The notes under the pieces: generated by a model
Databases searched by the model: none
What the model saw: only the letters and a program-made list of their open reading frames with translations
What the model was told of the DNA's origin: nothing
In this document: positions 33,506-57,939 of the stretch, piece by piece
How positions within the stretch are numbered: the first letter of the stretch is position 1
How the letters are laid out: each line of letters opens with the position of its first letter
Made by a program: the position numbers and the translations under genes
Origin: Clostridium sp.
Lineage (GTDB): Bacteria; Bacillota; Clostridia; Lachnospirales; Lachnospiraceae
DNA length: 64,000 bases
Assembly: GCA_023664385.1 (NCBI GenBank)
Contig: JAMPFU010000001.1
Location: 1-64,000, forward strand
Reading direction: 5' to 3'

Positions 33506-35833
33506 TTACTTGTTATCTCTCTTTATCTTCTTAGTACAGATTACTGCCAAAACAGCTGATACAAGCATCAAGATAAACACAACTGCTACAGGTGTTGTAT
33601 CTCCCGTATTTGGTGACGCTGCCTGTTTTGTGTTGTCAGCAGCTTTTACTGGTGTTACAGCTGCATCAGGTACATTGGTTTTAGTTGGTTCAACCGTACT
33701 AGGCGTATCATTCTTAGGCGGTTCAAGGGCTGTTCCCTCCCCTGCATCCTCGTATATAAGCGTGTAGAATGAAAACTTACCTGTGGTAAATGTTACCGTA
33801 TTTGGATTGTCGTCCAAGTCAGGCAATTCCTCTGCTATGCCGTCATGCAATCTTATAATAGAGAATTTCCTGTTGGCAGCCTGAAATTCCTTTGGCACAT
33901 CAATTGTCATTATTATTTCTTTATCAAGCTGATTCACGTTGCCCGATATAATTCCGTCAATGAATTTTACGATATTCATATCAAGAATTACGGCAATTTT
34001 CCGTTTCTTTGCGACTGCCTTTATTGTTTCAAGTTCGCTTTGTTCAACATCTGCCTCCGACAATGCCGCAACAATAAGGTCCACCTTTAAGTGCTTGCCG
34101 CTTTTTATCTCTGCTTCTGTAAATGCTGAGTTGATAAGCTCGTCATAGGCTTCATCGTCAAGCTTTATGTCGGGTGCTGTTTCGTCTGCTTTGTCGATAG
34201 AAACGGCAGGCATATCACCGAAAGGCATGAAAAAGCATCTGTATGTACAGTTATTGTCATCATTTCTATAACTATCAGAATAATCACTGACCCCTATCGT
34301 AAAATCTATAGGCTGAAGCTTTCCATCATCATCCGGCGACAGTGTACAATTCACTTTATATGTTACAGTTTCCCCCGCCTTAATGAAACTCCACTCTTCC
34401 ATGGGGTTTAATCTAGTGCGAACATAATAGCCCATATGGTCACGACAACAATCATTAACAATATTTTTTCCATTCGCATCTATTATCTGCATACCTTTGC
34501 TATGAACAAAATCCAAAACATCATCATTACGAACTACAACATTATACTGATGCTCAGCATCTTGTGGTAAGCCCAAAACCGTTCTTGCCCAACGAGACGT
34601 TATTTCTTCAAGTAATAGGTCATAATCATTATGATTGCTTATTTGTATATAAAAATTTGCCTCGGCTTCGGCAGTAAGATAATTGCCATCATGGTAAACA
34701 TTTATATCAACATTATCAAGGACTCCTTCACAATTTTCCTTTATATCATAATTGCTGTTTTCTATGTTTATTACACGGTTATACCCTAAGTAAAAGACAT
34801 CTGTTTTACTGTATGATGCCACGACCTTACCATTTGCATCATCTAACCTTACATATTCTGCATATATACGCATTGAAAATTTACCCTCAAGTTCCGAAGG
34901 CACAGTACATCTAATGAAATAAAATGCATCTGTTGTCGGAGCAACCAAAACGCTTTCATCTGTTAATACGCTTTCATTATTGTACCCCAAATATCCTGTT
35001 GTATCATTTGTAATGTTATAAGTATCGCTGTCAGGATTTTTCCCTGCACTAACAGAAATCGGTATGTTATATTCATTGCCCTTTTCATCTATTACATAAC
35101 CTTTCAGGCAAGCTAAATAAACATTAAATTCATTGTCATTTTGTACACGCCCACGAATAGTATACTCCATATTTAATGGTTGTGAGTTCACACTCGCTGA
35201 CCGAGCCCAAAAACGAAACTCAACATTCTCCAACTTTTCAACCTCTGCCCCCACAAGCAGTTCTTCCTCTGATGTGTCCTCGTCAAGCAGTTCCACAGTA
35301 GTTTCATTATCTTTTGCCATTTCTTCCGTTGCTTCTTCGTCAGACAGCACCATGTCCTCGTCACGCTTTTTGGCAGGTACCTCGCCATCCTCAAGCCCTC
35401 CTGCTGTGTCCATGTCAGTGTCAAAATTCACATCACTCTTTTCATCAGATGCCTCGCCATCCTCAAGCTTTCCTGCTGTGTCCGTATCTGCATCAATATC
35501 CGTTATACCGTCCTCGTTCTTCTGTCCATTTTTTTCATTACCCAAATCCTCAGTACTTGATTTTTCAGAGGAACTTCCATTGTCTAATACAGCAACAGCA
35601 TTTGTTGCTTCTGAATTTTCCACATCAACAACCATTTCCGTAGTTGTCACTTGTTCCAAAGCAGCTACATCCGTATCTGTTGCTCCCTCCGTCAATCTAT
35701 CTTCCACATCATTATTTACCTGCATATCGTTCTGTACGTTTTCATCGCTTGCACTGCTTGATATATAGCTGGCTCCCACTGTTGCAACCATCAGTATGGT
35801 ACAAAGCATAAAACTAATTATTTTTCTTTTCAT
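33506..35833 (-). CDS. Cell-wall-anchored surface protein (SPNTGD sorting signal)
   Basis: 775 residues. It has a signal peptide (about 1-29, MKRKIISFMLCTILMVATVGASY), an acidic low-complexity region (about 30-195) with two similar units (DTDTAGKLEDGEASDEK and DTDMDTAGGLEDGEVPAKK), a large domain of unknown family (about 200-690), a Thr/Pro-rich stretch, then SPNTGD, a hydrophobic segment and KKIKRDNK. The end matches the variant LPXTG signals of Lachnospiraceae (SPxTGD, NPxTGD), so a class B/D-like sortase should anchor it; none is in the window. AGGAGG precedes the ATG, inside a short upstream ORF. Its promoter is overlapped by two dyads next to a divergent XRE gene. Adhesin or surface enzyme cannot be told. 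Confidence 0.85.
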   Translation of the reverse strand: MKRKIISFMLCTILMVATVGASYISSSASDENVQNDMQVNNDVEDRLTEGATDTDVAALEQVTTTEMVVDVENSEATNAVAVLDNGSSSEKSSTEDLGNEKNGQKNEDGITDIDADTDTAGKLEDGEASDEKSDVNFDTDMDTAGGLEDGEVPAKKRDEDMVLSDEEATEEMAKDNETTVELLDEDTSEEELLVGAEVEKLENVEFRFWARSASVNSQPLNMEYTIRGRVQNDNEFNVYLACLKGYVIDEKGNEYNIPISVSAGKNPDSDTYNITNDTTGYLGYNNESVLTDESVLVAPTTDAFYFIRCTVPSELEGKFSMRIYAEYVRLDDANGKVVASYSKTDVFYLGYNRVINIENSNYDIKENCEGVLDNVDINVYHDGNYLTAEAEANFYIQISNHNDYDLLLEEITSRWARTVLGLPQDAEHQYNVVVRNDDVLDFVHSKGMQIIDANGKNIVNDCCRDHMGYYVRTRLNPMEEWSFIKAGETVTYKVNCTLSPDDDGKLQPIDFTIGVSDYSDSYRNDDNNCTYRCFFMPFGDMPAVSIDKADETAPDIKLDDEAYDELINSAFTEAEIKSGKHLKVDLIVAALSEADVEQSELETIKAVAKKRKIAVILDMNIVKFIDGIISGNVNQLDKEIIMTIDVPKEFQAANRKFSIIRLHDGIAEELPDLDDNPNTVTFTTGKFSFYTLIYEDAGEGTALEPPKNDTPSTVEPTKTNVPDAAVTPVKAADNTKQAASPNTGDTTPVAVVFILMLVSAVLAVICTKKIKRDNK

Positions 35834-36234: not shown

Positions 36235-36687
36235 TTAATTCGAGGATGCCCGTTTTATTCCCATAAACTCCTTTATGGCGCAGTATTTATCTGCAAAGCA
36301 CACCAAGACAGCCTCCTTCGATTTTGGCAGATGTGTGATGTTGAGCGGCCACATATGGCTGTAAATAATATTTTTCTCCATAGACGATAAGGAATACAAC
36401 GACATTGCATTTTTAAGTGCAGTTTCCGCATGCTTAAAGCCATGCCTGTAAGCACTTACCTCGCCGCTCTTTGTATCATATAGAAAATAATCATGCAACA
36501 TTGCACCTCTTGCCAGTGCCGCTTCATTTATATTCAATCTCAGCTTCTTTGATATTTTGTAGCTTGTTATGGCAACATTTCTGCTGTGGTCAAACCTCGT
36601 TGTAACACGGTGCTGTTTAAAGCTTTTTAGTATGGATAAATTCTCATCATTTTGCAGTCCATCCAGCACATCATAAAATTTTTTCAC
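36235..36687 (-). CDS. HD-domain phosphohydrolase
   Basis: 150 residues with an HD domain: TRFDHSRNVA supplies the first His, and GAMLHDYFLYD supplies the HD pair (about 70-80). Small stand-alone HD proteins of this type are metal-dependent phosphohydrolases, often annotated as phosphohydrolase/YedJ-like; the substrate is unknown. GAGGG precedes the ATG. It is monocistronic and convergent with the XRE gene. Confidence 0.85.
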   Translation of the reverse strand: MKKFYDVLDGLQNDENLSILKSFKQHRVTTRFDHSRNVAITSYKISKKLRLNINEAALARGAMLHDYFLYDTKSGEVSAYRHGFKHAETALKNAMSLYSLSSMEKNIIYSHMWPLNITHLPKSKEAVLVCFADKYCAIKEFMGIKRASSN

Positions 36688-36894: not shown

Positions 36895-38256
36895 ATGAAA
36901 AAAACACTGCGTTTTAGATTTGCATTATTGATAGGAAAAGCCGCATACAGAACGGGAAAGCTTCTTAAAATGAACGCCAGCCATTTTCCGGGAAGGCTTG
37001 CCATAAATTTGTGTCCTGATTTTTTGGGAAGAATAGACAAACCCGAAAAAATTATATGTGTCACGGGAACAAACGGAAAAACAACTGCCTGCAACATGAT
37101 ATTGGACGTGCTTTCCGATTGCAGCTATGATGTACTAAACAATAAGGCAGGCTCTAACCTGAATGCAGGCATTGCTACGTCGCTGCTGTCCCATGCAACC
37201 CTTGGCGGCAAGGTAAAACAGAAGCTTGCCCTTTTTGAGGTGGACGAGCGCAGCTCCAAATTGATTTATCCGTTTATTCATCCTGACTATGCAGTATGCA
37301 CAAACCTTTTCAGGGATTCCCTACAGAGAAATGCGCATACGGAATATATATTTAATCTAATCTCAGACCATATTCCAAAGGACACGCACATGATTTTAAA
37401 CGCTGATGATGTCATAAGCGCAGGGCTTGCCCCTGATAATGAAAGAACCTGCTATTCTATCGCCCACATGGAAACTGACCATGATGGGGATATAAATATT
37501 ATAAACGATGCAAGGATATGTCCAAAATGCTATCATCTGCTGAAATACAATTATATAAAATACCATCATATCGGAAATGCATACTGCCCTAATTGTGGTT
37601 TTACATCACCCGAAAGCGATTATGCCGCCCTGCCTGATTTTGATGCAGGGACCATTACCGTTAAGCACGGCGGGGCTGACGAGACATATCCGCTTATTAC
37701 GGACAGCATTTTTAACACATATAATCAGGTTACGGCAATTGCACTTCTAAGGGAGCTTGGGCTTTCCCCGGAGGAAATTTCCTCCTCCTTTGCCAAGGTA
37801 AAGGTGCTTGAAACGAGATACTCAAGCAAAAAGGCAAAGGGTGTTGAGGTGATTACCCACCTTTCCAAGGGCTTTAATCCGATAGCCTGCTCATGCGTAT
37901 TTGAGTTTGTAAGCAGACAGCAGGGCGAAAAAGAGGTTATACTGATGCTGGGTGACATTTACGGTCATTCCCACTCTCCTGAAATTGTTACATGGATGTA
38001 TGACGCTGATTTTGAATATCTCAATCAGCCTGACATAAACCACCTTATCGTATGCGGCGAACGGTGCGAGGATTATAAGCTGAGGCTTCTTCTTGCAGGT
38101 GTTTCTGAGGACAAAATAACATGCGTTCCCGATGAAACAAAGGCGCATGAATATTTGAGACTTGACAAAACCGAAAAAGTATTTATACTTCATCAAGTGT
38201 ATGCAACTAATGCCGCAGCCGCTGCACAAAATAAGATTATTGACAGACTTACGTAA
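36895..38256 (+). CDS. MurT-like Mur ligase (lipid II isoglutaminyl synthase type)
   Basis: 453 residues with the MurT layout: Mur ligase middle domain with P-loop VTGTNGKTT (56-64), an inserted zinc ribbon of four cysteines (209, 212, 231, 234: CPKC and CPNC), and the C-terminal DUF1727 domain (YDADFEYLNQPDINHLIVCGER from about 369). In S. aureus MurT activates D-isoglutamate of lipid II and GatD supplies ammonia. A conserved Asp before the VSW motif, which I believe is the MurT member of the catalytic triad, reads Ile364 here (IVTW). GAGGA precedes the ATG, and gatD-like follows 13 bp on. Confidence 0.9.
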   Translation: MKKTLRFRFALLIGKAAYRTGKLLKMNASHFPGRLAINLCPDFLGRIDKPEKIICVTGTNGKTTACNMILDVLSDCSYDVLNNKAGSNLNAGIATSLLSHATLGGKVKQKLALFEVDERSSKLIYPFIHPDYAVCTNLFRDSLQRNAHTEYIFNLISDHIPKDTHMILNADDVISAGLAPDNERTCYSIAHMETDHDGDINIINDARICPKCYHLLKYNYIKYHHIGNAYCPNCGFTSPESDYAALPDFDAGTITVKHGGADETYPLITDSIFNTYNQVTAIALLRELGLSPEEISSSFAKVKVLETRYSSKKAKGVEVITHLSKGFNPIACSCVFEFVSRQQGEKEVILMLGDIYGHSHSPEIVTWMYDADFEYLNQPDINHLIVCGERCEDYKLRLLLAGVSEDKITCVPDETKAHEYLRLDKTEKVFILHQVYATNAAAAAQNKIIDRLT

Positions 38257-38269
38257 GGAGGCATAGGAT

Positions 38270-38986
38270 ATGGCGGAAAATATAATCATTGAAACACTTT
38301 ATCCTGAATTTGCCAACTTATTCGGCGATTTGATGAATACGGGATATTTAAAAAAATGTATTCCTGACGGAACATTTATAGATACAAGCCTTTTTGATAC
38401 GCCTGCATTTGTAAGTCAGGATGTGTCAATGGTTTTCATGGGTGCCATGTCGGAAAAGCAGCAGGAGCTTGTCATCAATGCTCTCACACCCTACAAGGAG
38501 CGCATAACTGAGCTTATCGACAAGGGCTGTATCTTTCTTATGACGGGAAATGCCATGGAAATATTTGGTACTTATATTGAAAACGAAGATAAAAGCCGCG
38601 TCGACTGCCTTGGCTTATTTAACACATATGCCAAGCGGTTTATGTTTAACAGGCACAATTCCTATATATTAGGAGAATTTCAGGATATGAAGCTTTTAGG
38701 CTTTAAATCCCAATTCAGCCACTCCTACGGCGACAACTCTGACTGCTATTTTTATAAGGCAACGACAGGGTGTGGCATCAACCCTGACGCAGTGCTTGAG
38801 GGACTTAGGAAAAACAACTTTTACGGAACATACACCATCGGTCCGTTCCTGATATCAAACCCTCTGTTTGTAAAATATCTTATGAAGCTTATGGGGATTG
38901 AAAATCCAAGGCTTGCATTTGAAGATACAATTATGAGTGCCTATGACAGCAGGCTGAAACAATTTGAGACATTTAAGCCGCACTGA
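38270..38986 (+). CDS. GatD-like amidotransferase subunit lacking catalytic Cys and His
   Basis: 238 residues, recognisable as the GatD (CobB/CobQ-like class I glutamine amidotransferase) partner of MurT by position and by the stretches LTPYKERITELIDKGCIF, LGLFNTYAKR and GTYTIGPFLISNPLF. The nucleophile elbow that reads ICGGYQ-like in GatD is MTGNAM here, with Thr92 at the Cys position. The conserved HGP is IGP, with Ile190 at the His position. The protein therefore should not hydrolyse glutamine. AAGGAGG precedes the ATG. The open frame is intact, so this is a maintained, repurposed protein rather than a pseudogene. Confidence 0.85.
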   Translation: MAENIIIETLYPEFANLFGDLMNTGYLKKCIPDGTFIDTSLFDTPAFVSQDVSMVFMGAMSEKQQELVINALTPYKERITELIDKGCIFLMTGNAMEIFGTYIENEDKSRVDCLGLFNTYAKRFMFNRHNSYILGEFQDMKLLGFKSQFSHSYGDNSDCYFYKATTGCGINPDAVLEGLRKNNFYGTYTIGPFLISNPLFVKYLMKLMGIENPRLAFEDTIMSAYDSRLKQFETFKPH

Positions 38987-39047
38987 AAAAACGGACATAC
39001 AACACATGGTAAATGAAATATAAATGTTAGGAAAAGAGGTAACAGCT

Positions 39048-40289
39048 ATGGAAATGAAAGAGGTTTTTGAAACATACGAATCCAATGTACGTTCATATTG
39101 CAGAAGCTTCCCTGAGGTATTTGCAAAGGCAAAGGGTTCCATTATCACTGACGTAAACGGAAAGGAATATATAGACTTTTTCTGTGGCGCAGGAGCCGTA
39201 AACTACGGTCACAACAACGATTACATCAAGGGGAAACTAATCGAATACCTTGAAAATGACGGTTTCCTTCATGCCCTTGACATGATGACGGATGCAAAGG
39301 CAGGCTTTATTGACACATTTCAAAATAAAGTGCTGAAGCCAAGAGGACTTGACTATAAAATTATGTTTCCTGCCCCTACAGGCACAAATGCCATAGAGGC
39401 AGCACTTAAGCTTGCAAGAAAGGTTACAAAACGCACAAATATATGGTGCCTCATGGGCTGTTTCCATGGCATGACACTCGGGGCGCTTTCACTGACTACC
39501 GACAGAACTGACAGACAGGGTGCAGGACTTCCCCTTACAAATGTCACCCACATTCCTGCTCCGTATATGTTTGAGGAATTAGATACGCTGAACTATATGG
39601 AAACACTTATGGAGGACGACCATTCAGGCGTTGACAAGCCTGCCGCATTTATAATTGAAACCGTACAGGCAGAAGGTGGCATATATGTTTTCAGCAACGA
39701 GTGGCTTCAGGGCGTAAGGGCATTTTGTGATAAATACGACATTCTTCTCATTATTGACGATATACAGGTCGGCTGTGCACGTACAGGCACATTCTTCTCC
39801 TTTGAAAGAGCCGGTATTCAGCCTGACATCCTTGTTATGTCAAAATCAATCGGCGGCTATGGGCTTCCGTTTGCCGTTACCCTCTTTAAGCCTGAGCTTG
39901 ATATATGGCTTCCGGGCGAGCATAATGGAACCTTCAGGGGAAACCAGCTTGCAATGGTTGCCGCAAAGGCAGGGCTTGAGTTTATGCTTGACAATAACAT
40001 TGAAGCAGAGGCAAAGCGCAAGGAGACTATAATACGTGACTTCCTTGAAAAAAATGTTGCCCGTGACGGAGTTAAAATTCGCGGTATCGGCTGTATCTTT
40101 GGAATTGATGTGGGAACGGGTGAAAAGGCGTCAGCAATTTCAAGAGCATGCTTTAACAGAGGACTTATTATTGAGCTTGCAGGCAGAGACAACAGCGTTG
40201 TGAAGCCAATGCCTGCCCTTACCATACCTGATGACACACTTATGAAGGGACTTCAGATTATTAAAGAGGCTGTAGACGAGGTAATGTAA
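39048..40289 (+). CDS. Class III aminotransferase, diaminobutyrate-2-oxoglutarate type (EctB-like)
   Basis: 413 residues of a fold-type I, PLP-dependent class III aminotransferase. It resembles EctB/Dat: FETYESNVRSYCRSFP at the N-terminus, FFCGAGAVNYGHNND, PTGTNAIEAALKLARK, and the PLP lysine in MSKSIGGYGLPFAV. Such enzymes interconvert aspartate semialdehyde and L-2,4-diaminobutyrate with glutamate/2-oxoglutarate. ATG 39048 follows AAAGAGG by eight bases; an in-frame ATG at 39024 is less likely. It lies 61 bp after the GatD-like gene. No ectA, ectC or siderophore genes are nearby, so the diamine probably feeds the MurT-like ligase or another local use. Confidence 0.88.
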   Translation: MEMKEVFETYESNVRSYCRSFPEVFAKAKGSIITDVNGKEYIDFFCGAGAVNYGHNNDYIKGKLIEYLENDGFLHALDMMTDAKAGFIDTFQNKVLKPRGLDYKIMFPAPTGTNAIEAALKLARKVTKRTNIWCLMGCFHGMTLGALSLTTDRTDRQGAGLPLTNVTHIPAPYMFEELDTLNYMETLMEDDHSGVDKPAAFIIETVQAEGGIYVFSNEWLQGVRAFCDKYDILLIIDDIQVGCARTGTFFSFERAGIQPDILVMSKSIGGYGLPFAVTLFKPELDIWLPGEHNGTFRGNQLAMVAAKAGLEFMLDNNIEAEAKRKETIIRDFLEKNVARDGVKIRGIGCIFGIDVGTGEKASAISRACFNRGLIIELAGRDNSVVKPMPALTIPDDTLMKGLQIIKEAVDEVM

Positions 40290-40371: not shown

Positions 40372-42030
40372 CTACTGTCCCTCTATATACTCCCTCGCAT
40401 ATTCCATCAAGTAATCCTCGCCAGCCTCGAACATGGAGGCAACCGCCTTCTCATCAAACGGCACCTTCACGTCTAATGGAATTGTCGCTTGCCTTGATGC
40501 ATCTGTATCAATGTATATGGTGCCATCCTCCCTAAGCGTAGGCACCGATGAAAACTGCAAGGCTCCTTTTTCAAACGTCACGCCTTTTATCGCCTGCCCT
40601 GAGCAGTTTGAGGACGTAAAGCCCATAATCGTCACATTATCATAAATGCTCATGATATCAGCAAAATGGTCGCCCGCACTTACTGTGCCTGCGCTTACCA
40701 AAATTACAATCTGTCCGTCGCCCCACACACTTTCCCCTTCATATGCAATTTCATTTCCAGGAACATACCTTCCTGTCGCCTCATCATACTGATAACATTT
40801 TTCCTTCTCGTCCCACACGCTGTCATATGCATACTGGTGTTCTCCCTCCGGTGCAAGAAGCTCTGCAATGGCAAGAATAAAATTAGGGTCGCCGCCGCCA
40901 TTGTTCCTCAAATCAATTATAATATTTTTTATGCCCTTTTCCTGAAAGGCAAGCATATTTTCCCTTACTTCTTCCTTCATGGCGCTGAAGTTTCCTGTCG
41001 TTGAGGAATTGGTATCATACATCATAAGCGTTAAACGCAGGATACAGGTATCGTCACTAAGCTCATGCCATGTCACATTGTCGGCTTTTATTCCGTCTGC
41101 CAGTATGCTCATTGTCCTTTCAAGCCTATCAGCATATGCCCCAAGCTTTTCGGCACTCACGCTATGCTCTGTCCCGTCCTCGCCTATAAACTTTATTGTA
41201 ACACTATCACCGCCTGCTCCTGCGGCAAAAACGGCTCTATAGAAATCTTCGGTTTCCTTGACAGGATTGTATGGCATACCGTCATAATAACCGATTTCAA
41301 CATCATTGATAACCGCCTCTACATTCCTGCCGTCCCACTCGGTTATAACCGTACCGTTTCTGATACCCGCATTGTAAATGTCACTGTCTTTTTCCACATT
41401 TACTGCAACTGTTTTTCCGTCAGAGCGTGTCATAAGAGAAAGTCCGTAATCATTTCCGTACATAATCTCGTGCGCCTTCTCTAAAACATCCCTATCATTC
41501 AGCGAATATGCCACATGCCCGTCATGGAAATTACAGCAGAATTTTGTCCACAAAATATAATTCTCCACGGCATCATGCTTTTTTTCCACCTCCTTGAACT
41601 GTGGTTCATACTCCTCATAAAGCGCATCCCAATCAATGCCCTTGTGCTCTGCAAGACAATAATGCTCCTGCATTGCATCAAAGCCCTCCTTAAATTCCTG
41701 AAGGTAGTTTGGCGCTCTATATCCTTTATATAAATTACATACTAAAATGCTTGGAATAATGAGCAGCACCGCAATTGCAGACGCCAGCCTGCGCATTTTA
41801 GCTTCTTCCCTTGAAAAACCAATCAAAAGAACAATGACTGCTATATAAACGCTTAACAGTGATATTTCCTCACCTGTAAATGCAATGAATGCCATACACA
41901 CAATCAATGGAACAACATACAAAAGCTTCCATTTCGTACTTTTCACCTTATCCGCATAATCTGCAAGGAAGTAAAGCCCAATGGAAAAAGCAAGCTCTAT
42001 CAATATCAAATACAAATCACTTTTTATCAT
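40372..42030 (-). CDS. Membrane-bound S41-family peptidase (tricorn/CtpA-like)
   Basis: 552 residues: four N-terminal transmembrane segments (about 5-100), a helical region, a PDZ-like stretch (ADGIK.. and VEKDSDIYNAGIRNGTVITEWDGRNVEAV near 210-245), then the S41 protease domain with IIDLRNNGGGDPNF and the nucleophile serine in VSAGTVSAGDHFA (about 475). The active site should lie outside the membrane. AGGAGG precedes the ATG. It is last in a probable operon with the ABC exporter; related arrangements occur near peptide export or immunity systems. Confidence 0.85.
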   Translation of the reverse strand: MIKSDLYLILIELAFSIGLYFLADYADKVKSTKWKLLYVVPLIVCMAFIAFTGEEISLLSVYIAVIVLLIGFSREEAKMRRLASAIAVLLIIPSILVCNLYKGYRAPNYLQEFKEGFDAMQEHYCLAEHKGIDWDALYEEYEPQFKEVEKKHDAVENYILWTKFCCNFHDGHVAYSLNDRDVLEKAHEIMYGNDYGLSLMTRSDGKTVAVNVEKDSDIYNAGIRNGTVITEWDGRNVEAVINDVEIGYYDGMPYNPVKETEDFYRAVFAAGAGGDSVTIKFIGEDGTEHSVSAEKLGAYADRLERTMSILADGIKADNVTWHELSDDTCILRLTLMMYDTNSSTTGNFSAMKEEVRENMLAFQEKGIKNIIIDLRNNGGGDPNFILAIAELLAPEGEHQYAYDSVWDEKEKCYQYDEATGRYVPGNEIAYEGESVWGDGQIVILVSAGTVSAGDHFADIMSIYDNVTIMGFTSSNCSGQAIKGVTFEKGALQFSSVPTLREDGTIYIDTDASRQATIPLDVKVPFDEKAVASMFEAGEDYLMEYAREYIEGQ

Positions 42031-42041
42031 TTCATTACCTC

Positions 42042-42824
42042 CTAATTCATATCATCCTTCGCAAAAAATTTATATCCCAGCCATAAGAACAAGCTGCCAA
42101 TCCCAATTGATGATACCACAACGGATGCAATATCGCCAGCGGATAATGTGGCATCATAAATCATTATCATATCAGTCGTGTTACCAAGGGAATATGTATA
42201 CCACGATTCAAAGCTTCCAAGCTTATTAAAACAAGTCACTCCCAAAAAGACGGAGTCGCCATTTAGCATCCCTTCGGAAATAAGCTGTGCAAGCATAAAT
42301 ACCATATATCCCCCTGCCATTGTTATATATGGATTTTTCACTACATAGGTCAGAAAAACAAATTCACATATTATCCGCATGACAACAAGCATGGCAAGTC
42401 CAAACCGAAGCAGCACCTCGCCTACGGCAAGCTCCGTTCCCCAGCCATATCCCACACTTCCAAAAATGATAGGCAGGATAGCCAAAATCGCCGTACCGAT
42501 TGTTCCTACAATAATACTGACAATGGCACGTGCAAAATACACCTGCCTTCTTGTATGTCCCGACATAAGCTCATAGTTTGACGTCTTATCTATAAAGTCT
42601 CCGCCACAAACATAGCCTGTAAATACAATGGCAAAGATAACGGCAGTAGAAAGCATATCTACACTCATGTCTGCAATGTATTTGCCGGCAGACATTTTAT
42701 AATTCTCGTAATCAAGCTCACCAAAGTACATGATCAAATTCATAAATGCTATTGCGATAAAAATAAGAAAGCTAAACTTTGTTTTACGGATTTGATATAG
42801 CTGTGCCTTTATTATATGCTTCAA
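42042..42824 (-). CDS. ABC-2 type transporter permease (second)
   Basis: 260 residues with six hydrophobic segments. The N-terminal IIKAQLYQIRKTKF is similar to the start of the next permease upstream, pointing to gene duplication. The start is a TTG at 42824 with GGGAGG eight bases upstream. It forms an exporter with the ATPase and the other permease, reminiscent of LanE/LanG or BcrB. Confidence 0.85.
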   Translation of the reverse strand: MKHIIKAQLYQIRKTKFSFLIFIAIAFMNLIMYFGELDYENYKMSAGKYIADMSVDMLSTAVIFAIVFTGYVCGGDFIDKTSNYELMSGHTRRQVYFARAIVSIIVGTIGTAILAILPIIFGSVGYGWGTELAVGEVLLRFGLAMLVVMRIICEFVFLTYVVKNPYITMAGGYMVFMLAQLISEGMLNGDSVFLGVTCFNKLGSFESWYTYSLGNTTDMIMIYDATLSAGDIASVVVSSIGIGSLFLWLGYKFFAKDDMN

Positions 42825-42837
42825 TTCATTTCCCTCC

Positions 42838-43620
42838 CTACATATCCCTTTTCTTAAATATTCTATAGCTGATTAAAACATAGACTGCCCCGACAACAAG
42901 TGATATGATAACCGAGCCTTTAAGCAGTGACGCATCAATCGTTCCATCATAGACGGTTACCATTTCATCGCCGATAAGCCGAGGGATTGAATTTGAAAAT
43001 TCTGATAATGCCACAAGATTTGGAAATGCAAATATACTGCCAGTATTAATATCCAATACTTCCTTAATAAGCATAAGCGGAAAAAGCGAACCCATTACCA
43101 GCATATATCCAAGGACGATTCCCGCATTGCTGTTTTTTGCCAATACTGTTATAAAAACAATCACACAAATCCACCTTATATACGGACAAAGCATAACTGC
43201 AAATCTTATAACAAAATCATTCACATTTAAGCTGTAACCCCAGCCATTTATTATTGTAAAGAAAATAAGAGGAATGACTGCCACAATTACTGACGAAATA
43301 ATTGTCCATGCAAATGCGACAAGCAGCCTTCCAAAAAACACCTGTGCCCTTGAGTGTCCTGACAACATCTCATAATTAATTGTTTTGTCGTTCATATCCC
43401 ATCCGATTATTCTTGTGACAATAATAAGTGAAATAATCAAAAAAACAAAGGGAAGCATCGAAAACATGCTTACTGCATACAGGCTGCCCGTCATATAATC
43501 AAGTCCCGCATCGTCAAGGAAAAGCTCGGCAACAGGAAGAAGCAGGGAAACAAGCAGTCCATATATGATAAGGTTATCTCCCTTAATTTGATAATTCTGT
43601 GCTTTCATTATGTTCCACAT
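42838..43620 (-). CDS. ABC-2 type transporter permease (first)
   Basis: About 260 residues, six transmembrane segments. ATG 43620 is chosen because AGGTGA lies five bases upstream; a GTG at 43629 is an alternative. It overlaps the ATPase gene. The pattern of one ATPase and two paralogous permeases is that of lantibiotic immunity exporters (LanFEG). Confidence 0.86.
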   Translation of the reverse strand: MWNIMKAQNYQIKGDNLIIYGLLVSLLLPVAELFLDDAGLDYMTGSLYAVSMFSMLPFVFLIISLIIVTRIIGWDMNDKTINYEMLSGHSRAQVFFGRLLVAFAWTIISSVIVAVIPLIFFTIINGWGYSLNVNDFVIRFAVMLCPYIRWICVIVFITVLAKNSNAGIVLGYMLVMGSLFPLMLIKEVLDINTGSIFAFPNLVALSEFSNSIPRLIGDEMVTVYDGTIDASLLKGSVIISLVVGAVYVLISYRIFKKRDM

Positions 43621-44533
43621 TCTGCTCACCTACCATATCCATATAATATTTTTCCAAATTAGCTTCATTAACATTAAGGGTTATTGGAACAACGCCTCCC
43701 TCATATAGGGCCTTCGATACAGTTACAAGATTATCCATCTGCTCGTATAGACGTATGCTTCCGTCCTCCTCTATGTCATAATCTGACGCATTTAGTTTTT
43801 CCTGCAATATCACAATTGCCCGCTCATCATTATCCGTGTGAATATGATAATATTCCTTGCAAAGCTTTTTCAGCTCGTCTGCGGAAACCGACTGAATCAG
43901 CTCGCCGTGATGAATAAAAATGTAATCTGTACAAAGAAGCGACAGCTCGCTTAAAATATGGGAGGAAATGACTATCGTTATATGCTCCTCCCGATTAAGC
44001 TTGAGGAGAAGCTCCCTGATTTCAACAATTCCCTCAGGGTCAAGTCCGTTTATAGGCTCATCCATAACCATGATTTCAGGCTTTGAGAGAAGGGCTATGG
44101 CTATTCCAAGCCTCTGTCTCATTCCAAGGGAAAAGTTTTTAACGTGCTTTTTTCCTGTATTTTCAAGTCCTACGATTTTTAGAACCTCGTCTATTCTTTT
44201 TTTGTCAGGAATCCCCTTTTGTATTCTCTGCTTTTCAAGATTCTGCCTTGCCGTCATTTTCTCCTTTGCATAAGGGGTTTCAATCATAAAGCTCATGCGG
44301 CTTCTCGCCTTTGCAAGTCCATTTTCATCACTGCTGCCAAAAATATTCATATCGCCCTCCGTAGGCAAAACAAGTCCTCCCAGCAGCTTCATTATCGTTG
44401 TCTTACCTGCGCCGTTTGGTCCTATAAGACCACAAATCATACCCTCCTTAATCTGAAAGGACACGTCATTTACTACCGTCTGCTTCATGTATTGCTTTTT
44501 CAGTTTTTTTACTTCAATTAATGTGTCCGGCAT
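43583..44533 (-). CDS. ABC transporter ATP-binding protein (BcrA/LanF-like)
   Basis: 316 residues: Walker A GPNGAGKTT (about 37-45), signature LGMRQRLGIAIAL, Walker B IMVMDEPINGLDP, and a C-terminal extension (about 220-316) as in BcrA-type ATPases that energise export of peptides or antibiotics. AAAGGAGG precedes the ATG. It is first of four genes (ATPase, permease, permease, S41 peptidase). No biosynthesis or two-component gene lies adjacent; the nearest two-component pair is 6 kb away. Confidence 0.92.
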   Translation of the reverse strand: MPDTLIEVKKLKKQYMKQTVVNDVSFQIKEGMICGLIGPNGAGKTTIMKLLGGLVLPTEGDMNIFGSSDENGLAKARSRMSFMIETPYAKEKMTARQNLEKQRIQKGIPDKKRIDEVLKIVGLENTGKKHVKNFSLGMRQRLGIAIALLSKPEIMVMDEPINGLDPEGIVEIRELLLKLNREEHITIVISSHILSELSLLCTDYIFIHHGELIQSVSADELKKLCKEYYHIHTDNDERAIVILQEKLNASDYDIEEDGSIRLYEQMDNLVTVSKALYEGGVVPITLNVNEANLEKYYMDMVGEQNVEHNESTELSN

Positions 44534-44767: not shown

Positions 44768-45358
44768 ATGAGAGAATTAAGTAATGAAAAACTTAAAAAT
44801 CAATTAGATAAACTATATAAAAATCTTATCAAACTAAAAAGACTTGATATTGAAAATAATTATTGTACAAATTTGTTGTCTTGGTTTGATGAAGTTATAT
44901 TAAAAAATATTGCAATCTTTAAAAGTAAAAAATCTGAAACAGAAATGGACCAAGAATTATTTAAAAAACCAAGACAACATGTTTATTGGATAGATTTTGG
45001 AAGAAATATCGGAAGTGAATTTAGAGATTTACATTTTGCTGTTGTAATATATGAATCTAAATATACTGCCTTGGTCGTTCCATTAACTTCTAAAAAAGAA
45101 TATGATCCACAATGGATAGATGAAAACAAAAATACAATTGTAGATTTAGGTATTATTGATGGTTTTCCAGAAGAAAGCAAAGAATGTTATGCTTGTACTT
45201 TCATGATGCAATCTGTAAGCAAAAAAAGGCTATCTAAATATGAGAATTCAAAAAAAGGTTACTTTGATATAAAACTTACAAATGAACAAATGAAGCAAAT
45301 TTGTAATAATTTATCACAAAGCGCATATAATAGCATTGAAAAAGGAAAACAAGATTGA
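44768..45358 (+). CDS. PemK/MazF-like protein, orphan
   Basis: 196 residues. A helical, Lys-rich N-terminus (about 1-65) precedes a PemK/MazF-type SH3-like core: RQHVYWIDFGRNIGSEFRDLHFAVVIYESKYTALVVPLTSK (segments of about 75-118) followed by IVDLGIIDGF and the late strand TFMMQSVSKKRLSKY. These are typical of mRNA endoribonuclease toxins. No antitoxin gene lies on either side, and I found no tandem repeats upstream that would suggest a type III RNA antitoxin. The DNA is clearly more AT-rich than its neighbours, with many AAA, ATA and TTA codons, which suggests recent transfer. The extra N-terminal region could act as a built-in antitoxin or targeting domain. Confidence 0.75.
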   Translation: MRELSNEKLKNQLDKLYKNLIKLKRLDIENNYCTNLLSWFDEVILKNIAIFKSKKSETEMDQELFKKPRQHVYWIDFGRNIGSEFRDLHFAVVIYESKYTALVVPLTSKKEYDPQWIDENKNTIVDLGIIDGFPEESKECYACTFMMQSVSKKRLSKYENSKKGYFDIKLTNEQMKQICNNLSQSAYNSIEKGKQD

Positions 45359-54499: not shown

Positions 54500-55612
54500 C
54501 TACAGTGGTGCATCAGCGTCATTTTCCACTGTATAATCAGTGTAATTAAATGCCTCCGATGACTCAAATAAAATATCTCTTGCCCTGTCAAAGCAATCCA
54601 ATATCTTAGGCGAAAATACCCCACACTCACCGTCATGTATCATCCTTACCGCAACGTCAGCAGCATAAGGCGTCTTGTAAACTCTCTTGCTTACCAGTGC
54701 GTCATAAACATCTACGATTGATACAACCTGCGCCCATATTGGAATGTCCTCGCCTGCAAGTCCGTCAGGATAACCATTTCCGTCATATCTCTCATGGTGA
54801 TACCTGCATATATCATAGCAATAACGATAAAAATCGCTGTCCTCCTGCCTGAATTTCTCAAGAATTTCACAGCCATAAATCGTATGCTTTTTCATTTCTT
54901 CAAATTCTTCCTTTGTAAGCTTGCCCGGCTTAAGCAATATGCTGTCAGGAATTGCAATCTTGCCTATGTCATGCAATGCAGATGCATTTACCATAAGGTC
55001 AATCTGGTCCTTTGTAAGCTCATATTCTGGATAGTACGCCTTAAGATAATTCAGGAATATACGCGTAAAAAACTTAACACGCTTAATATGCTCCCCTGAT
55101 TCAAGGCTTCGAAACTCAACAACAGAGCTTAAAGCATTAACCAAAAATTCATTGCTTTTTTCCAGCTTCTCCCTGCTTGCAATCAACTGTTTCGTACGCT
55201 TCTCAAGCTTCTTCTCCATATGAATCCTGCTCTCAAAAAGCTCCAATATGTTCATGGCACGACGTAAAATAACCTTCGCCGCAAAAGGCTTGTAAATGAT
55301 GTCAGAAGCTCCGTATTCATATGCCTTCATATCCGTTTCATCTGTTGCTTCCCCGGTAATCATTATAACGGGAATGGTTTTCATATACCCTTTATCATTC
55401 ATATGCTTCATTACTTCAAGACCTGTTCTCTTGGGCATAATCAAATCAAGAAACAGCATTGAAATTTCATCATGTTGTTCATCAAGAATTTTAATTGTCT
55501 GTTCTCCATCCTTGGCTTCAAGGACGTGAAACTGCTTATCGAAAATCTGCTTCAATAGCTCACGGTTAAGCTCTGCATCATCTGCTATAAGAATCGTTTT
55601 CTTCTCATCCAT
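54500..55612 (-). CDS. Response regulator with HD-GYP c-di-GMP phosphodiesterase domain
   Basis: About 370 residues: receiver domain (about 5-120) with DDAE, Asp in MLFLDLIMPKRTG and Lys in IYKPFAA; a short coiled coil; then HD-GYP (about 165-350) with HDIGKIAIPD, HHERYDGNGYPDGL containing the GYP triad, and a late HD-type metal site. It should hydrolyse cyclic di-GMP, perhaps on phosphorylation by an unlinked kinase. ATG 55612 is chosen because the promoter (55659-55688) lies inside the longer possible frame and AGGAG is at nine bases. Confidence 0.93.
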   Translation of the reverse strand: MDEKKTILIADDAELNRELLKQIFDKQFHVLEAKDGEQTIKILDEQHDEISMLFLDLIMPKRTGLEVMKHMNDKGYMKTIPVIMITGEATDETDMKAYEYGASDIIYKPFAAKVILRRAMNILELFESRIHMEKKLEKRTKQLIASREKLEKSNEFLVNALSSVVEFRSLESGEHIKRVKFFTRIFLNYLKAYYPEYELTKDQIDLMVNASALHDIGKIAIPDSILLKPGKLTKEEFEEMKKHTIYGCEILEKFRQEDSDFYRYCYDICRYHHERYDGNGYPDGLAGEDIPIWAQVVSIVDVYDALVSKRVYKTPYAADVAVRMIHDGECGVFSPKILDCFDRARDILFESSEAFNYTDYTVENDADAPL

Positions 55613-55658
55613 GTTACCCTGCTCCTTCTTTTTTTTTAAGATCTTAAAATATGTCCTT

Positions 55659-55688
55659 ATTATAATGTCAACATATGGCATTATTCAA
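55659..55688 (-). promoter_or_regulatory. Promoter of the HD-GYP gene
   Basis: On the minus strand TTGAAT, 18 bp, TATAAT. A 16-base palindrome TTTTAAGATCTTAAAA (55634-55649) lies between this promoter and the SD. Confidence 0.65.
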
Positions 55689-55737
55689 GTGTTTTTTGAA
55701 AAAAGATGGCATAAAATAAAGAAAAAACACTAAAAAA

Positions 55738-56502
55738 CTAATCCTTAAATTCCACCGCATGCTTTCTCATCCAGATTGGGAACATATTGCGCTGGCAAGC
55801 CCTGTTTTCCCGTTCCTTAATGCCTATGGACTGAAAGAAGGTTCTCCACAGCCCCGTATACGCATCCTCAAACTCCTCACTGCGGCTTAATACATCAAAT
55901 TCCTGTTCTGTAAGATACATGATATAAGACTCCTCATCCTTCGGATGCACAACGGCAAGCCGTCTGTTATCATCCACAATGACAAAGTGCTCCGAGGGCA
56001 TCCTGTCAGCAAAATGCTCCGCCACTATTGTAACAACATTATTTTTAGGCTCAATATGACAAACATAAGCCTTATCCTCCAAGGAGGTAAATCTTGCAAA
56101 CTCCTTAAAAAAGTGGCTCTCATTTCCAATTCTTCTCTTAAGCTCCAAAATGCGCATAACCTGAGGATTTGCATACATGGAGCATACCTTCGCTCCAACC
56201 GCAAAGCCCACCCTGAGAAAATTATATATCGCCTGCAATGCATCCTCCTCGACAGAAAGTGATGCGTAATACACTAAAAAATAAGCCTGATTTGATATTG
56301 ATTTTTTTATGGAACGTATCACCTTTTCCGTTTTCTCCCTATCTGCATCAACATGTGTATACTCATCGAAAAAAGACTGCTGCCATACCGGCTCTCTCAC
56401 AAGCCTTATATTGTCATGTCCTTCTTTTATTGCACAGCTCCACGCATCATAAATACACGTGAGCATATCCTCAAATCTGTCCTCACAGCAAAATATCTTC
56501 AT
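55738..56502 (-). CDS. TIGR03915-family putative DNA repair protein (DUF4130)
   Basis: 254 residues matching TIGR03915: CCEDRFEDMLTCIYDAW near the start, FLRVGFAVG in the middle, and MPSEHFVIVDDNRRLAVVHP with the conserved C-terminal MPIWMRK-like end (MFPIWMRKHAVEF). These proteins are always paired with the TIGR03916 radical SAM protein, encoded 3 bp upstream here. Biochemistry is not established; the pair is thought to act in DNA metabolism. The SOS-type promoter upstream supports that. Confidence 0.88.
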   Translation of the reverse strand: MKIFCCEDRFEDMLTCIYDAWSCAIKEGHDNIRLVREPVWQQSFFDEYTHVDADREKTEKVIRSIKKSISNQAYFLVYYASLSVEEDALQAIYNFLRVGFAVGAKVCSMYANPQVMRILELKRRIGNESHFFKEFARFTSLEDKAYVCHIEPKNNVVTIVAEHFADRMPSEHFVIVDDNRRLAVVHPKDEESYIMYLTEQEFDVLSRSEEFEDAYTGLWRTFFQSIGIKERENRACQRNMFPIWMRKHAVEFKD

Positions 56503-56505
56503 ATG

Positions 56506-57939
56506 CTATCCTATCCCAAAATCGGCAAGAGACATCTGATTGTAAGTCTTATTCTGATTATTTATCTTCCAGTTATCCCTTCCGTTTGTATCAATAAGCT
56601 GTCTTGTAATGTATTGCTCCTCTATAGGCGTATTATAAAGCCTGTGCCCGTTGCAGGTTATGAAATAATGCGCACGTTTTAATACTACACCCATTTTTTT
56701 CAGATTATTAAAATCAAGCGTACCGTATCTTCTTCCATAAATAATTCTCCCTGCGGACCTTGGACCGATACCCGGAATTCTTAAAAGCAGGTCGTATGGC
56801 GCACGCTGAACCTCCACAGGGAAATATTCGAGATGCCTGAGTGCCCAATCACATTTTGGGTCAAGGAGCTCATTAAAATTTGGTTTTTCCTCGGATAAAA
56901 GCTCATTTGCCTGAAAGCCGTAATATCTAAGCAGCCAATCAGCCTGATATAATCTGTGTTCCCGAAGCAGCGGTGGTGGCGTATGTATAGCAGGCAAGTT
57001 GGCATCCTCATTGAGCGGTATATAGGCTGAATAAAAAACACGTTTAAGGTCATAGCTCTGATAAAGCTTCTCCGTCGTCTTAATAAGCGTATAGTCACTC
57101 TCTTCAGTAGCACCTATAATCATCTGTGTACTCTGCCCTGCCGGTGCAAAGCTTCTCTTAAGCCCTCCCCCATCTGACGGCACAAGGGCATTTTTAACCG
57201 CAGCCTCAGTTATGCCTTCCTGCCTTTCTATGCCCTGCCTGCTTTGGAAAATGCTGTTGGAAAGATACAGATTCCCCCTGCTTCTCTCCATCCTTGCGTC
57301 CTTCCCTATGGCAACTCTGTGTGCCTTAATCGTATCACTTACCTTACCCATCGGCTCAAGTATGGTCTTAAAGCTTTTGTTCGGGGCGAGCTTCGACAAG
57401 CTTTCTGCTGTGGGAAGCTCAAGATTAACGCTTATCCTGTCGGCAAGATACCCTGCCGTTGCAAGCAGCTCATCTGCCGCTCCCGGAATTGTTTTCACAT
57501 GAATATATCCGTTAAAATGATACTTATTTCTAAGCAGCAAAAGCGTCTCGCACATTTTTTCCATTGTGTAGGTGGGATTTTTAAGAACACCCGAGCTTAA
57601 AAAAAGCCCCTCGATATAGTTTCTCTTATAAAACTCAACCGTAAGTCCACAAATCTCCTCAGGGGTAAATGTAGCTCTCGGAATATCGTTGGAGGCTCTG
57701 TTAATACAATACCTGCAATCATAAACACAATGGTTCGTCATAAGAATCTTGAGTAGTGAAATACATCTGCCGTCTGCAGCAAAGCTGTGACATATTCCAC
57801 ATGCCTTTGTATTCCCAAGAAATCCTTTCTTTCCTTTTCTGTCGGAACCGCTTGATGTACATGCAACGTCATACTTTGCCGCATCTGCCAGTATATTTAA
57901 TTTTTCCTCTGTCGTATGATCTGCTATAATCTCATTCAT
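56506..57939 (-). CDS. TIGR03916-family radical SAM protein, putative DNA modification/repair
   Basis: About 477 residues: a Cys-rich N-terminus (CGICHSFAADGRC), the radical SAM cluster motif CVYDCRYC (about 71-78, CX3CX2C), and a C-terminal helix-hairpin-helix (LLRIPGIGPRSAGRIIYGRR, about 390-410) that should bind DNA. The start is ATG 57939, because a promoter and LexA-like box occupy the upstream bases and would fall inside a longer frame beginning at 57978. There is no SD, which fits the -10 lying only 6 bases before the ATG (leaderless message). It forms a pair with the TIGR03915 gene. Confidence 0.9.
   Translation of the reverse strand: MNEIIADHTTEEKLNILADAAKYDVACTSSGSDRKGKKGFLGNTKACGICHSFAADGRCISLLKILMTNHCVYDCRYCINRASNDIPRATFTPEEICGLTVEFYKRNYIEGLFLSSGVLKNPTYTMEKMCETLLLLRNKYHFNGYIHVKTIPGAADELLATAGYLADRISVNLELPTAESLSKLAPNKSFKTILEPMGKVSDTIKAHRVAIGKDARMERSRGNLYLSNSIFQSRQGIERQEGITEAAVKNALVPSDGGGLKRSFAPAGQSTQMIIGATEESDYTLIKTTEKLYQSYDLKRVFYSAYIPLNEDANLPAIHTPPPLLREHRLYQADWLLRYYGFQANELLSEEKPNFNELLDPKCDWALRHLEYFPVEVQRAPYDLLLRIPGIGPRSAGRIIYGRRYGTLDFNNLKKMGVVLKRAHYFITCNGHRLYNTPIEEQYITRQLIDTNGRDNWKINNQNKTYNQMSLADFGIG

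Follow-up and report, generated by a model that had tools for sequence, protein, structure and literature searches.

The 64,000-nucleotide stretch analyzed here, which we call the window, belongs to Clostridium sp., a member of the Lachnospiraceae (assembly GCA_023664385.1, contig JAMPFU010000001.1; genome G000, 3.17 Mb), and it contains a tandem of three open frames on the plus strand. The first encodes a protein like the Mur ligase MurT, the second, 13 bases on, a protein like its partner GatD, and the third, another 37 bases on, an aminotransferase of the EctB type. Canonical MurT activates the alpha-carboxyl of D-glutamate (D-Glu), and GatD supplies ammonia to MurT. Here, we show that the window pair has lost the residues for making that ammonia from glutamine, has kept its ligase core, belongs to one large clade of similar pairs, and is linked to genes of diamino acid metabolism.

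Loss of the glutaminase triad

The triad of Staphylococcus aureus MurT-GatD is C94/H189/D349, and in vitro amidation is abolished by GatD C94S and severely reduced by MurT D349N, as given in excerpts of one study (PMC6113224). All three members are replaced in the window pair. Gly93 of the GatD-like protein aligned with Cys94 by HMMER, in agreement with MAFFT alignments, and Ile190 aligned with His189 by HMMER; in the MurT-like protein, Ile364 aligned with Asp349. The original prediction had named the same triad and had placed Ile190 and Ile364 correctly, and it was right that the nucleophile is gone, but it put Thr92 at the cysteine position, one residue too early.

The ligase core is present. 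The MurT-like protein matched the Pfam domains MurT_C (85.5 bits) and Mur_ligase_M (39.3 bits), carries the Mur ligase P-loop and the zinc ribbon, and has an intact Glu115 at the position of S. aureus Glu108. MurT and GatD models were also the best NCBIfam matches, at scores far below the equivalog cut-offs: 194 and 176 bits against 800 for the MurT-like protein, and 51 against 400 and 40 against 450 bits for the GatD-like protein, which reached 22.3 bits with Pfam GATase_3, under the 27-bit cut-off. The EctB-like protein scored 574.2 bits with the curated ectB model TIGR02407, above the cut-off of 552.2, and its top Protein Data Bank (PDB) matches were the diaminobutyrate transaminases 9s1q, 9s1p, and 6rl5. 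Its predicted product, by family, is L-2,4-diaminobutyrate. The assignment of the third gene to the EctB/Dat kind thus stands, as does the statement that ectoine and siderophore genes are missing nearby: none was found among the flanking window genes that were family-searched, EctA and EctC being outside any genome-wide search. Use of EctB for ectoine or a siderophore was rejected on those flanks; the neighbors in relatives were clustered and mostly not family-searched.

Table 1. Features of the three-gene operon, in window coordinates
Feature	Position	Strand	Basis
MurT-like Mur ligase, 453 aa, triad-less subclade I	36895..38256	+	Open frame, Pfam/NCBIfam profiles, tree
ATP-binding loop TGTNGKTT, MurT-like residues 57-64	37063..37086	+	Invariant in 14 subclade-I representatives
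Zinc ribbon, MurT-like Cys209/212/231/234	37519..37596	+	Conserved in subclade I
MurT-like Glu363-Ile364	37981..37986	+	Ile364 at S. aureus MurT Asp349 position; Glu363 in 48/50 subclade-I rows
GatD-like protein, 238 aa, without Cys nucleophile and catalytic His	38270..38986	+	Profiles, alignment
GatD-like Gly93	38546..38548	+	Aligned with catalytic Cys94 of S. aureus GatD
GatD-like Ile190	38837..38839	+	Aligned with catalytic His189 of S. aureus GatD
EctB-type L-2,4-diaminobutyrate:2-oxoglutarate aminotransferase, 421 aa	39024..40289	+	TIGR02407 and PDB matches

One clade, with purifying selection on the operon

Most MurT proteins with a triad-less partner form one clade. A FastTree phylogeny was built from 149 MurT rows (one further MurT-like row each from loci L174 and L196 was omitted), and the state of the partner GatD was known for 145, of which 48 had both Cys and His and 97 lacked one or both. 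Ninety triad-less rows fell into a single clade with support of 100 and three subclades. The other seven defective rows lay outside it: five of family f67 (L140, L141, L142, L146, and L148), in which GatD lacks Cys and His and MurT retains Asp; one from G207 (L144), in which Cys is replaced by Ser and both His and Asp are retained; and one from G196, in which His is kept. In an IQ-TREE phylogeny of 76 rows, chosen to drop near-copies and some long branches, one change splits the 51 rows of subclades I to III from 22 canonical rows (three f67 rows being uncounted), and each of the subclades I, II, and III occupied one side of a branch, with support of 97, 100, and 97.

The window pair belongs to subclade I, which comprises 50 MurT rows. 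The P-loop lysine and Glu115 were each conserved in 50/50, every zinc cysteine in 49 or 50 of the 50, and the subclade has conserved residues of its own: MurT Glu363, GatD Asn94 (49/52), and GatD Glu or Asp97 (50/52), where one of the 52 GatD rows is a fragment (L079) and another is an unrelated amidotransferase (L180). Pairwise ratios of nonsynonymous to synonymous substitution (dN/dS) among close relatives were 0.06 to 0.10 for the GatD-like gene, 0.05 to 0.08 for the MurT-like gene, and 0.02 to 0.07 for ectB; a single comparison over a greater distance showed saturation and was discarded. Moreover, the three genes stay together in six close relatives. On the dN/dS values and the newly conserved residues, a decayed pair was rejected. 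The earlier claim of an intact ATP loop and an intact zinc ribbon holds, and purifying selection, one large clade, and new conserved residues support the claim that the pair is repurposed.

Distribution of triad-less pairs

Triad-less pairs are widespread, which rules out a quirk of a single species. MurT was found in 46 of 195 relatives; by residues, 13 had the canonical Cys, His, and Asp and 33 were without Cys and His, and none of the 33 also had a canonical pair. One further relative, G052, yielded no more than part of a GatD, at the end of a contig. The window genome itself has one other MurT_C protein, and its partner GatD also lacks Cys and His. Thus, the second complete MurT-GatD that the original prediction had named as refuting did not turn up, and no canonical pair was found in the genome that could compensate for the loss of the triad. 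The second pair lies on the minus strand at about 54676-56818 of G000:C8 (8677-10819 of L034) and is followed by a PF14397-family ATP-grasp gene, an arrangement that recurs in six relatives.

A class panel of 391 genomes had MurT in 212, of which 103 were left out of residue checks. The 30 top-scoring loci all had GatD with Cys and His and MurT with Asp. Nineteen mid-scoring loci, in 18 genomes, had the cysteine in 17 cases, the exceptions being a second copy in G209 (L277), in which Gly stands in for Cys and His is retained, and G244, with no Cys motif by pattern; a further region, a 100-base filler from a genome lacking MurT, was not used. The 58 low-scoring genomes held a pair of the triad-less clade in 43, family f67 in 5, and partial cases in G207 and G196; 4 gave no answer, and 5 (G520, G450, G431, G218, and G535) had a canonical pair, with both kinds in G520. 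Carriers therefore number 45, that is, the 43 plus G000 and G026. Also left out of the residue checks was G264, and the loci retrieved for G336, G323, and G553 showed no GatD-like frame, nor did the second of the MurT loci in G434. Among 14 well-known genomes searched as controls, MurT_C matched 2, EctB none, and the ornithine racemase family Orr 1.

Two unusual arrangements were seen. Two diverging triad-less pairs lie back to back at 1605-5958 of L047 (G147), and natural fusions of MurT-like and GatD-like proteins occur at 7719-9869 of L041 and 3614-5794 of L053, giving chains of 717 and 727 residues that would be useful for structure work.

Linkage to EctB and to an Orr-like racemase

The original prediction had suggested testing whether triad-less pairs co-occur with EctB, and a link is supported. 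EctB was present in 25 of the 195 relatives: 21 of the 33 with a triad-less pair versus none of the 13 with a canonical pair, plus G052 and three without MurT (G090, G097, and G177). In 13 of the 33, EctB comes immediately after the pair; these cases fall on four separate branches, and in one of them it adjoins a natural MurT-GatD fusion (G017). Within the window genus, either EctB (16 genomes) or an adjacent Orr-like racemase (8 genomes) was found in 24/26 carriers and in 0/11 non-carriers (Fisher P = 9e-8, a value not corrected for relatedness and with several non-carriers incomplete); the two carriers with neither gene were G005 and G029, the latter 64% complete. In the eight genomes of the genus without EctB, the Orr-like racemase adjoins the pair, and in seven of them it is encoded on the other strand. 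These eight racemases scored 235 to 396 bits with the Orr profile, below its cut-off of 480, and a search of 80 genomes gave nine positives, those eight and G128, which has a canonical pair.

The class panel gave a similar association for one subclade. An Orr-family gene was present in 13 of 14 subclade-II genomes versus 63 of 391 overall (P = 2e-10). EctB was found in 9/391, of which 6 are carriers and the others G253, G390, and G540.

We note several further neighbors. Genes of the alanine racemase kind come next in the cluster in G035, G025, and G010; the one in G035 was family-searched and may be a plain alanine racemase, because it scored above the alr cut-off. EctB adjoins very large proteins in G253, G390, and G090 (L252, L253, and L104) that resemble nonribosomal peptide synthetases or polyketide synthases (NRPS/PKS) by size and opening residues, not by family search, and these loci perhaps represent a separate use of diaminobutyrate. 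PF14397-family ATP-grasp genes adjoin EctB in G012 and G540, and genes whose opening residues are similar do so in G026 and G032, which may point to an additional step.

Cell wall context

Peptidoglycan of type B carries a diamino acid on the alpha-carboxyl of D-Glu. Triad-less subclade II includes Eubacterium limosum and Acetobacterium woodii, for which type B walls have reportedly been described at the species level by Schleifer and Kandler and by Kandler and Schoberth. The genomes of E. limosum ATCC 8486 (G572) and A. woodii (G282) each yielded a single MurT, and both are triad-less; the G282 RnfB is identical over 333 residues to PDB 9eri_B, whose source organism we take to be A. woodii. 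The E. limosum pair lies at about 3786570-3788690 of G572:C1. In both genomes, a single MnmA-like gene separates the pair from GlmM, and in A. woodii GlmS then follows. In G033, EctB lies near genes with GlmS-like and MurA-like opening residues, which were not family-searched. Excerpts of one source list peptidoglycan B2-alpha for Eubacterium, at the level of the genus (PMC11382707), and excerpts of another describe D-diaminobutyrate as the bridge from D-Glu to D-Ala in Clavibacter (PMC9603630).

MurE, the ligase for position 3 of the stem, was found in 40 genomes, and its substrate motif was read in 30. Twenty-five had DNPR, the motif for meso-diaminopimelic acid (meso-DAP), four had DNPA (E. 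limosum, A. woodii, G375, and G395), and one had QDPR (G147). In three carriers (G452, G469, and G555), EctB follows a MurE with EDPS or EDPG in place of DNPR, and the EctB product therefore plausibly enters peptidoglycan in those three.

Surroundings of the window operon

An S41 peptidase, two ABC-2 permeases, and an ABC ATPase are encoded on the minus strand at 40372-44533 and adjoin the operon in its closest relatives too. On the other side, a small HD-domain protein, present in some close relatives, diverges from the operon (36235-36687, minus strand). Beyond it, on the same strand, lies an acidic protein of 775 residues without a Pfam match (33506-35833), which has a signal-like start and a C terminus like that of a sortase substrate, with a PNTGD motif, a hydrophobic segment, and basic residues. 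A PemK/MazF-like domain protein is encoded at 44768-45358. Promoter and terminator scans were uninformative, with 19 promoter-like sites versus 10.1 expected and 4 terminator-like sites versus 3.4.

Discussion

How a MurT-GatD pair might work after losing its glutaminase is suggested by its neighbors, and the original interpretation is partly supported. Because the pair has no glutaminase but is encoded next to a source of diamino acids or a racemase, we infer that the most economical change would be for another nucleophile to attack the same acyl phosphate. Thus, we think it fairly probable, from sequence, that the ligase still activates the D-Glu of lipid II and uses a diamino acid instead of glutamine-derived ammonia. 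The pair would activate the alpha-carboxyl of D-Glu in the peptidoglycan precursor with ATP, as MurT does; ammonia from glutamine would no longer be delivered, and the diamino acid would act as the nucleophile. In the window lineage, the adjacent EctB would convert aspartate semialdehyde into the amine, 2,4-diaminobutyrate, and in sister lineages the amine would probably be D-ornithine or a similar D-diamino acid supplied by the ornithine-racemase-like enzyme. GatD may remain in the complex in a structural role and perhaps also to bind substrate, its pocket having been rebuilt. In Eubacterium and Acetobacterium, which have no usable diamino acid at position 3, the added diamino acid would form the type B bridge between positions 2 and 4. 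The window organism, whose MurE carries DNPR, would have a DAP wall and not a textbook type B wall; diaminobutyrate on its D-Glu would be a substituent or a second site of cross-linking. A precedent is offered by polyamines on D-Glu in Veillonella and Selenomonas, whose walls contain meso-DAP. More tentatively, and as something that we find possible but short of probable, triad-less MurT-GatD may install the type B diamino acid in Clostridia, and meso-DAP Lachnospiraceae, common gut bacteria, may have an undescribed hybrid wall with DAP at position 3 and diaminobutyrate or ornithine on the D-Glu of position 2.

Several observations weigh against the attachment of a diamino acid to D-Glu. EctB and Orr-family genes are both missing from 24 of the 31 class-panel carriers that lie outside subclade II, Orr-family genes also accompany canonical pairs (G128 and G539), and all counts of co-occurrence depend on phylogeny. 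No racemase adjoins the window operon genes. The single MurE found in the window genome has DNPR, as do five of the nine subclade-II carriers that were read (G247, G538, G013, G018, and G027), and most examined carriers are not classical type B because their MurE carries that motif. Finally, Microbacteriaceae are a family with type B walls, and a Leifsonia shinshuensis plasmid, the only record of that family found in the plasmid collection, encodes a canonical pair with Cys, His, and Asp (L288 6004-8953, read by eye). The rule therefore does not obviously reach type B actinobacteria, and this single case speaks against an extension to them. We note that the plasmid also carries metal-transport genes and that its pair adjoins an M15 peptidase flagged as vanY-like.

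Alternatively, with free ammonia as the original prediction had also allowed, MurT might amidate lipid II using ammonium, GatD being structural only and the EctB and Orr neighbors incidental. The ligase core is fully retained, as this would require, and the two kinds of pair are nearly exclusive, occurring together in 0/33 relatives and in 1/45 class-panel carriers (G520), a pattern that fits the substitution of one kind for the other in isoglutamine synthesis; the many carriers outside subclade II with neither EctB nor Orr fit as well. We consider it unlikely, since the S. aureus substitutions cited above cripple amidation in vitro and the diamino acid genes track the pair, in 24/26 versus 0/11 genomes of the genus and by Orr in subclade II. 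Another arrangement, in which EctB feeds diaminobutyrate to stem position 3 through MurE and the triad-less MurT adds a different amine to D-Glu (glycine, cadaverine, putrescine, or a D-amino acid), seems to us a little less likely still. In its favor, the MurE that precedes EctB in G452, G469, and G555 has a changed motif, and excerpts of one source describe polyamines on D-Glu in Veillonella and Selenomonas (PMC12826042). Against the arrangement, the window genome's MurE is of the DNPR kind, and its EctB adjoins MurT-GatD and not MurE.

The remaining alternatives are more remote. The acceptor could lie outside peptidoglycan, the modified glutamyl group belonging to a different polymer or to a natural product, a reading to which the NRPS/PKS-like neighbors of EctB in G253, G390, and G090, themselves not family-searched, lend some color. 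Those three genomes yielded no triad-less pair, however, and in carriers GlmM and GlmS lie near the pair or MurE precedes EctB, and in G033 EctB lies near the genes with GlmS- and MurA-like openings; we regard a non-wall acceptor as improbable. Loss of the triad would also be compatible with a degenerate or regulatory pair with no catalytic role, but such a pair would hardly be expected to remain under purifying selection with its P-loop lysine, Glu115, and zinc cysteines nearly invariant in subclade I, and we give that explanation very little credence.

Why the pair matters follows from where it would act. Position-2 D-Glu is part of known innate ligands and, if diamino acid attachment is correct, expectations for the gut muropeptides that hosts sense would change. 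The sequences suggest a large family that hangs diamino acids, not ammonia, on the bacterial wall, and this clade of Mur ligases offers a directly testable candidate in culturable acetogens. In the public record of Vescimonas fastidiosa MM35, whose pair is triad-less as judged by eye, the two proteins bear no labels beyond "Mur ligase family protein" and "hypothetical protein." Type B cross-linking was chemically cataloged in the 1970s, according to excerpts of one source (PMC11382707). Among the matches listed for MurT/GatD with type B, diaminobutyrate, or ornithine racemase, none, by its title and the start of its abstract, names the ligase or assigns it this role.

Like the isoglutaminyl synthase MurT-GatD of S. 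aureus and Streptococcus pneumoniae, the window pair is encoded by two genes and has a Mur ligase middle domain with MurT_C, a zinc ribbon, a P-loop, and GatD signatures. Unlike that enzyme, it lacks the Cys, the His, and the MurT Asp and scores far under the equivalog cut-offs, and it and its kin are linked to EctB or an Orr-like racemase. The window EctB is a predicted diaminobutyrate aminotransferase above the curated cut-off and differs from known members in being coupled to a Mur ligase, with no ectoine or siderophore gene among the searched flanks. Type B bridge formation is brought to mind by two acetogens of a family with type B walls that carry the triad-less pair and no other MurT that we found; the window organism differs in its MurE of the meso-DAP kind, and ligation there is predicted from genes. 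A further parallel is Selenomonas, in which a lipid intermediate:diamine transferase activity would put an amine on the alpha-carboxyl of D-Glu in a meso-DAP wall. The reaction that we propose would be alike in its D-Glu site, and the amine in Selenomonas is cadaverine or putrescine, where the window pair would use 2,4-diaminobutyrate.

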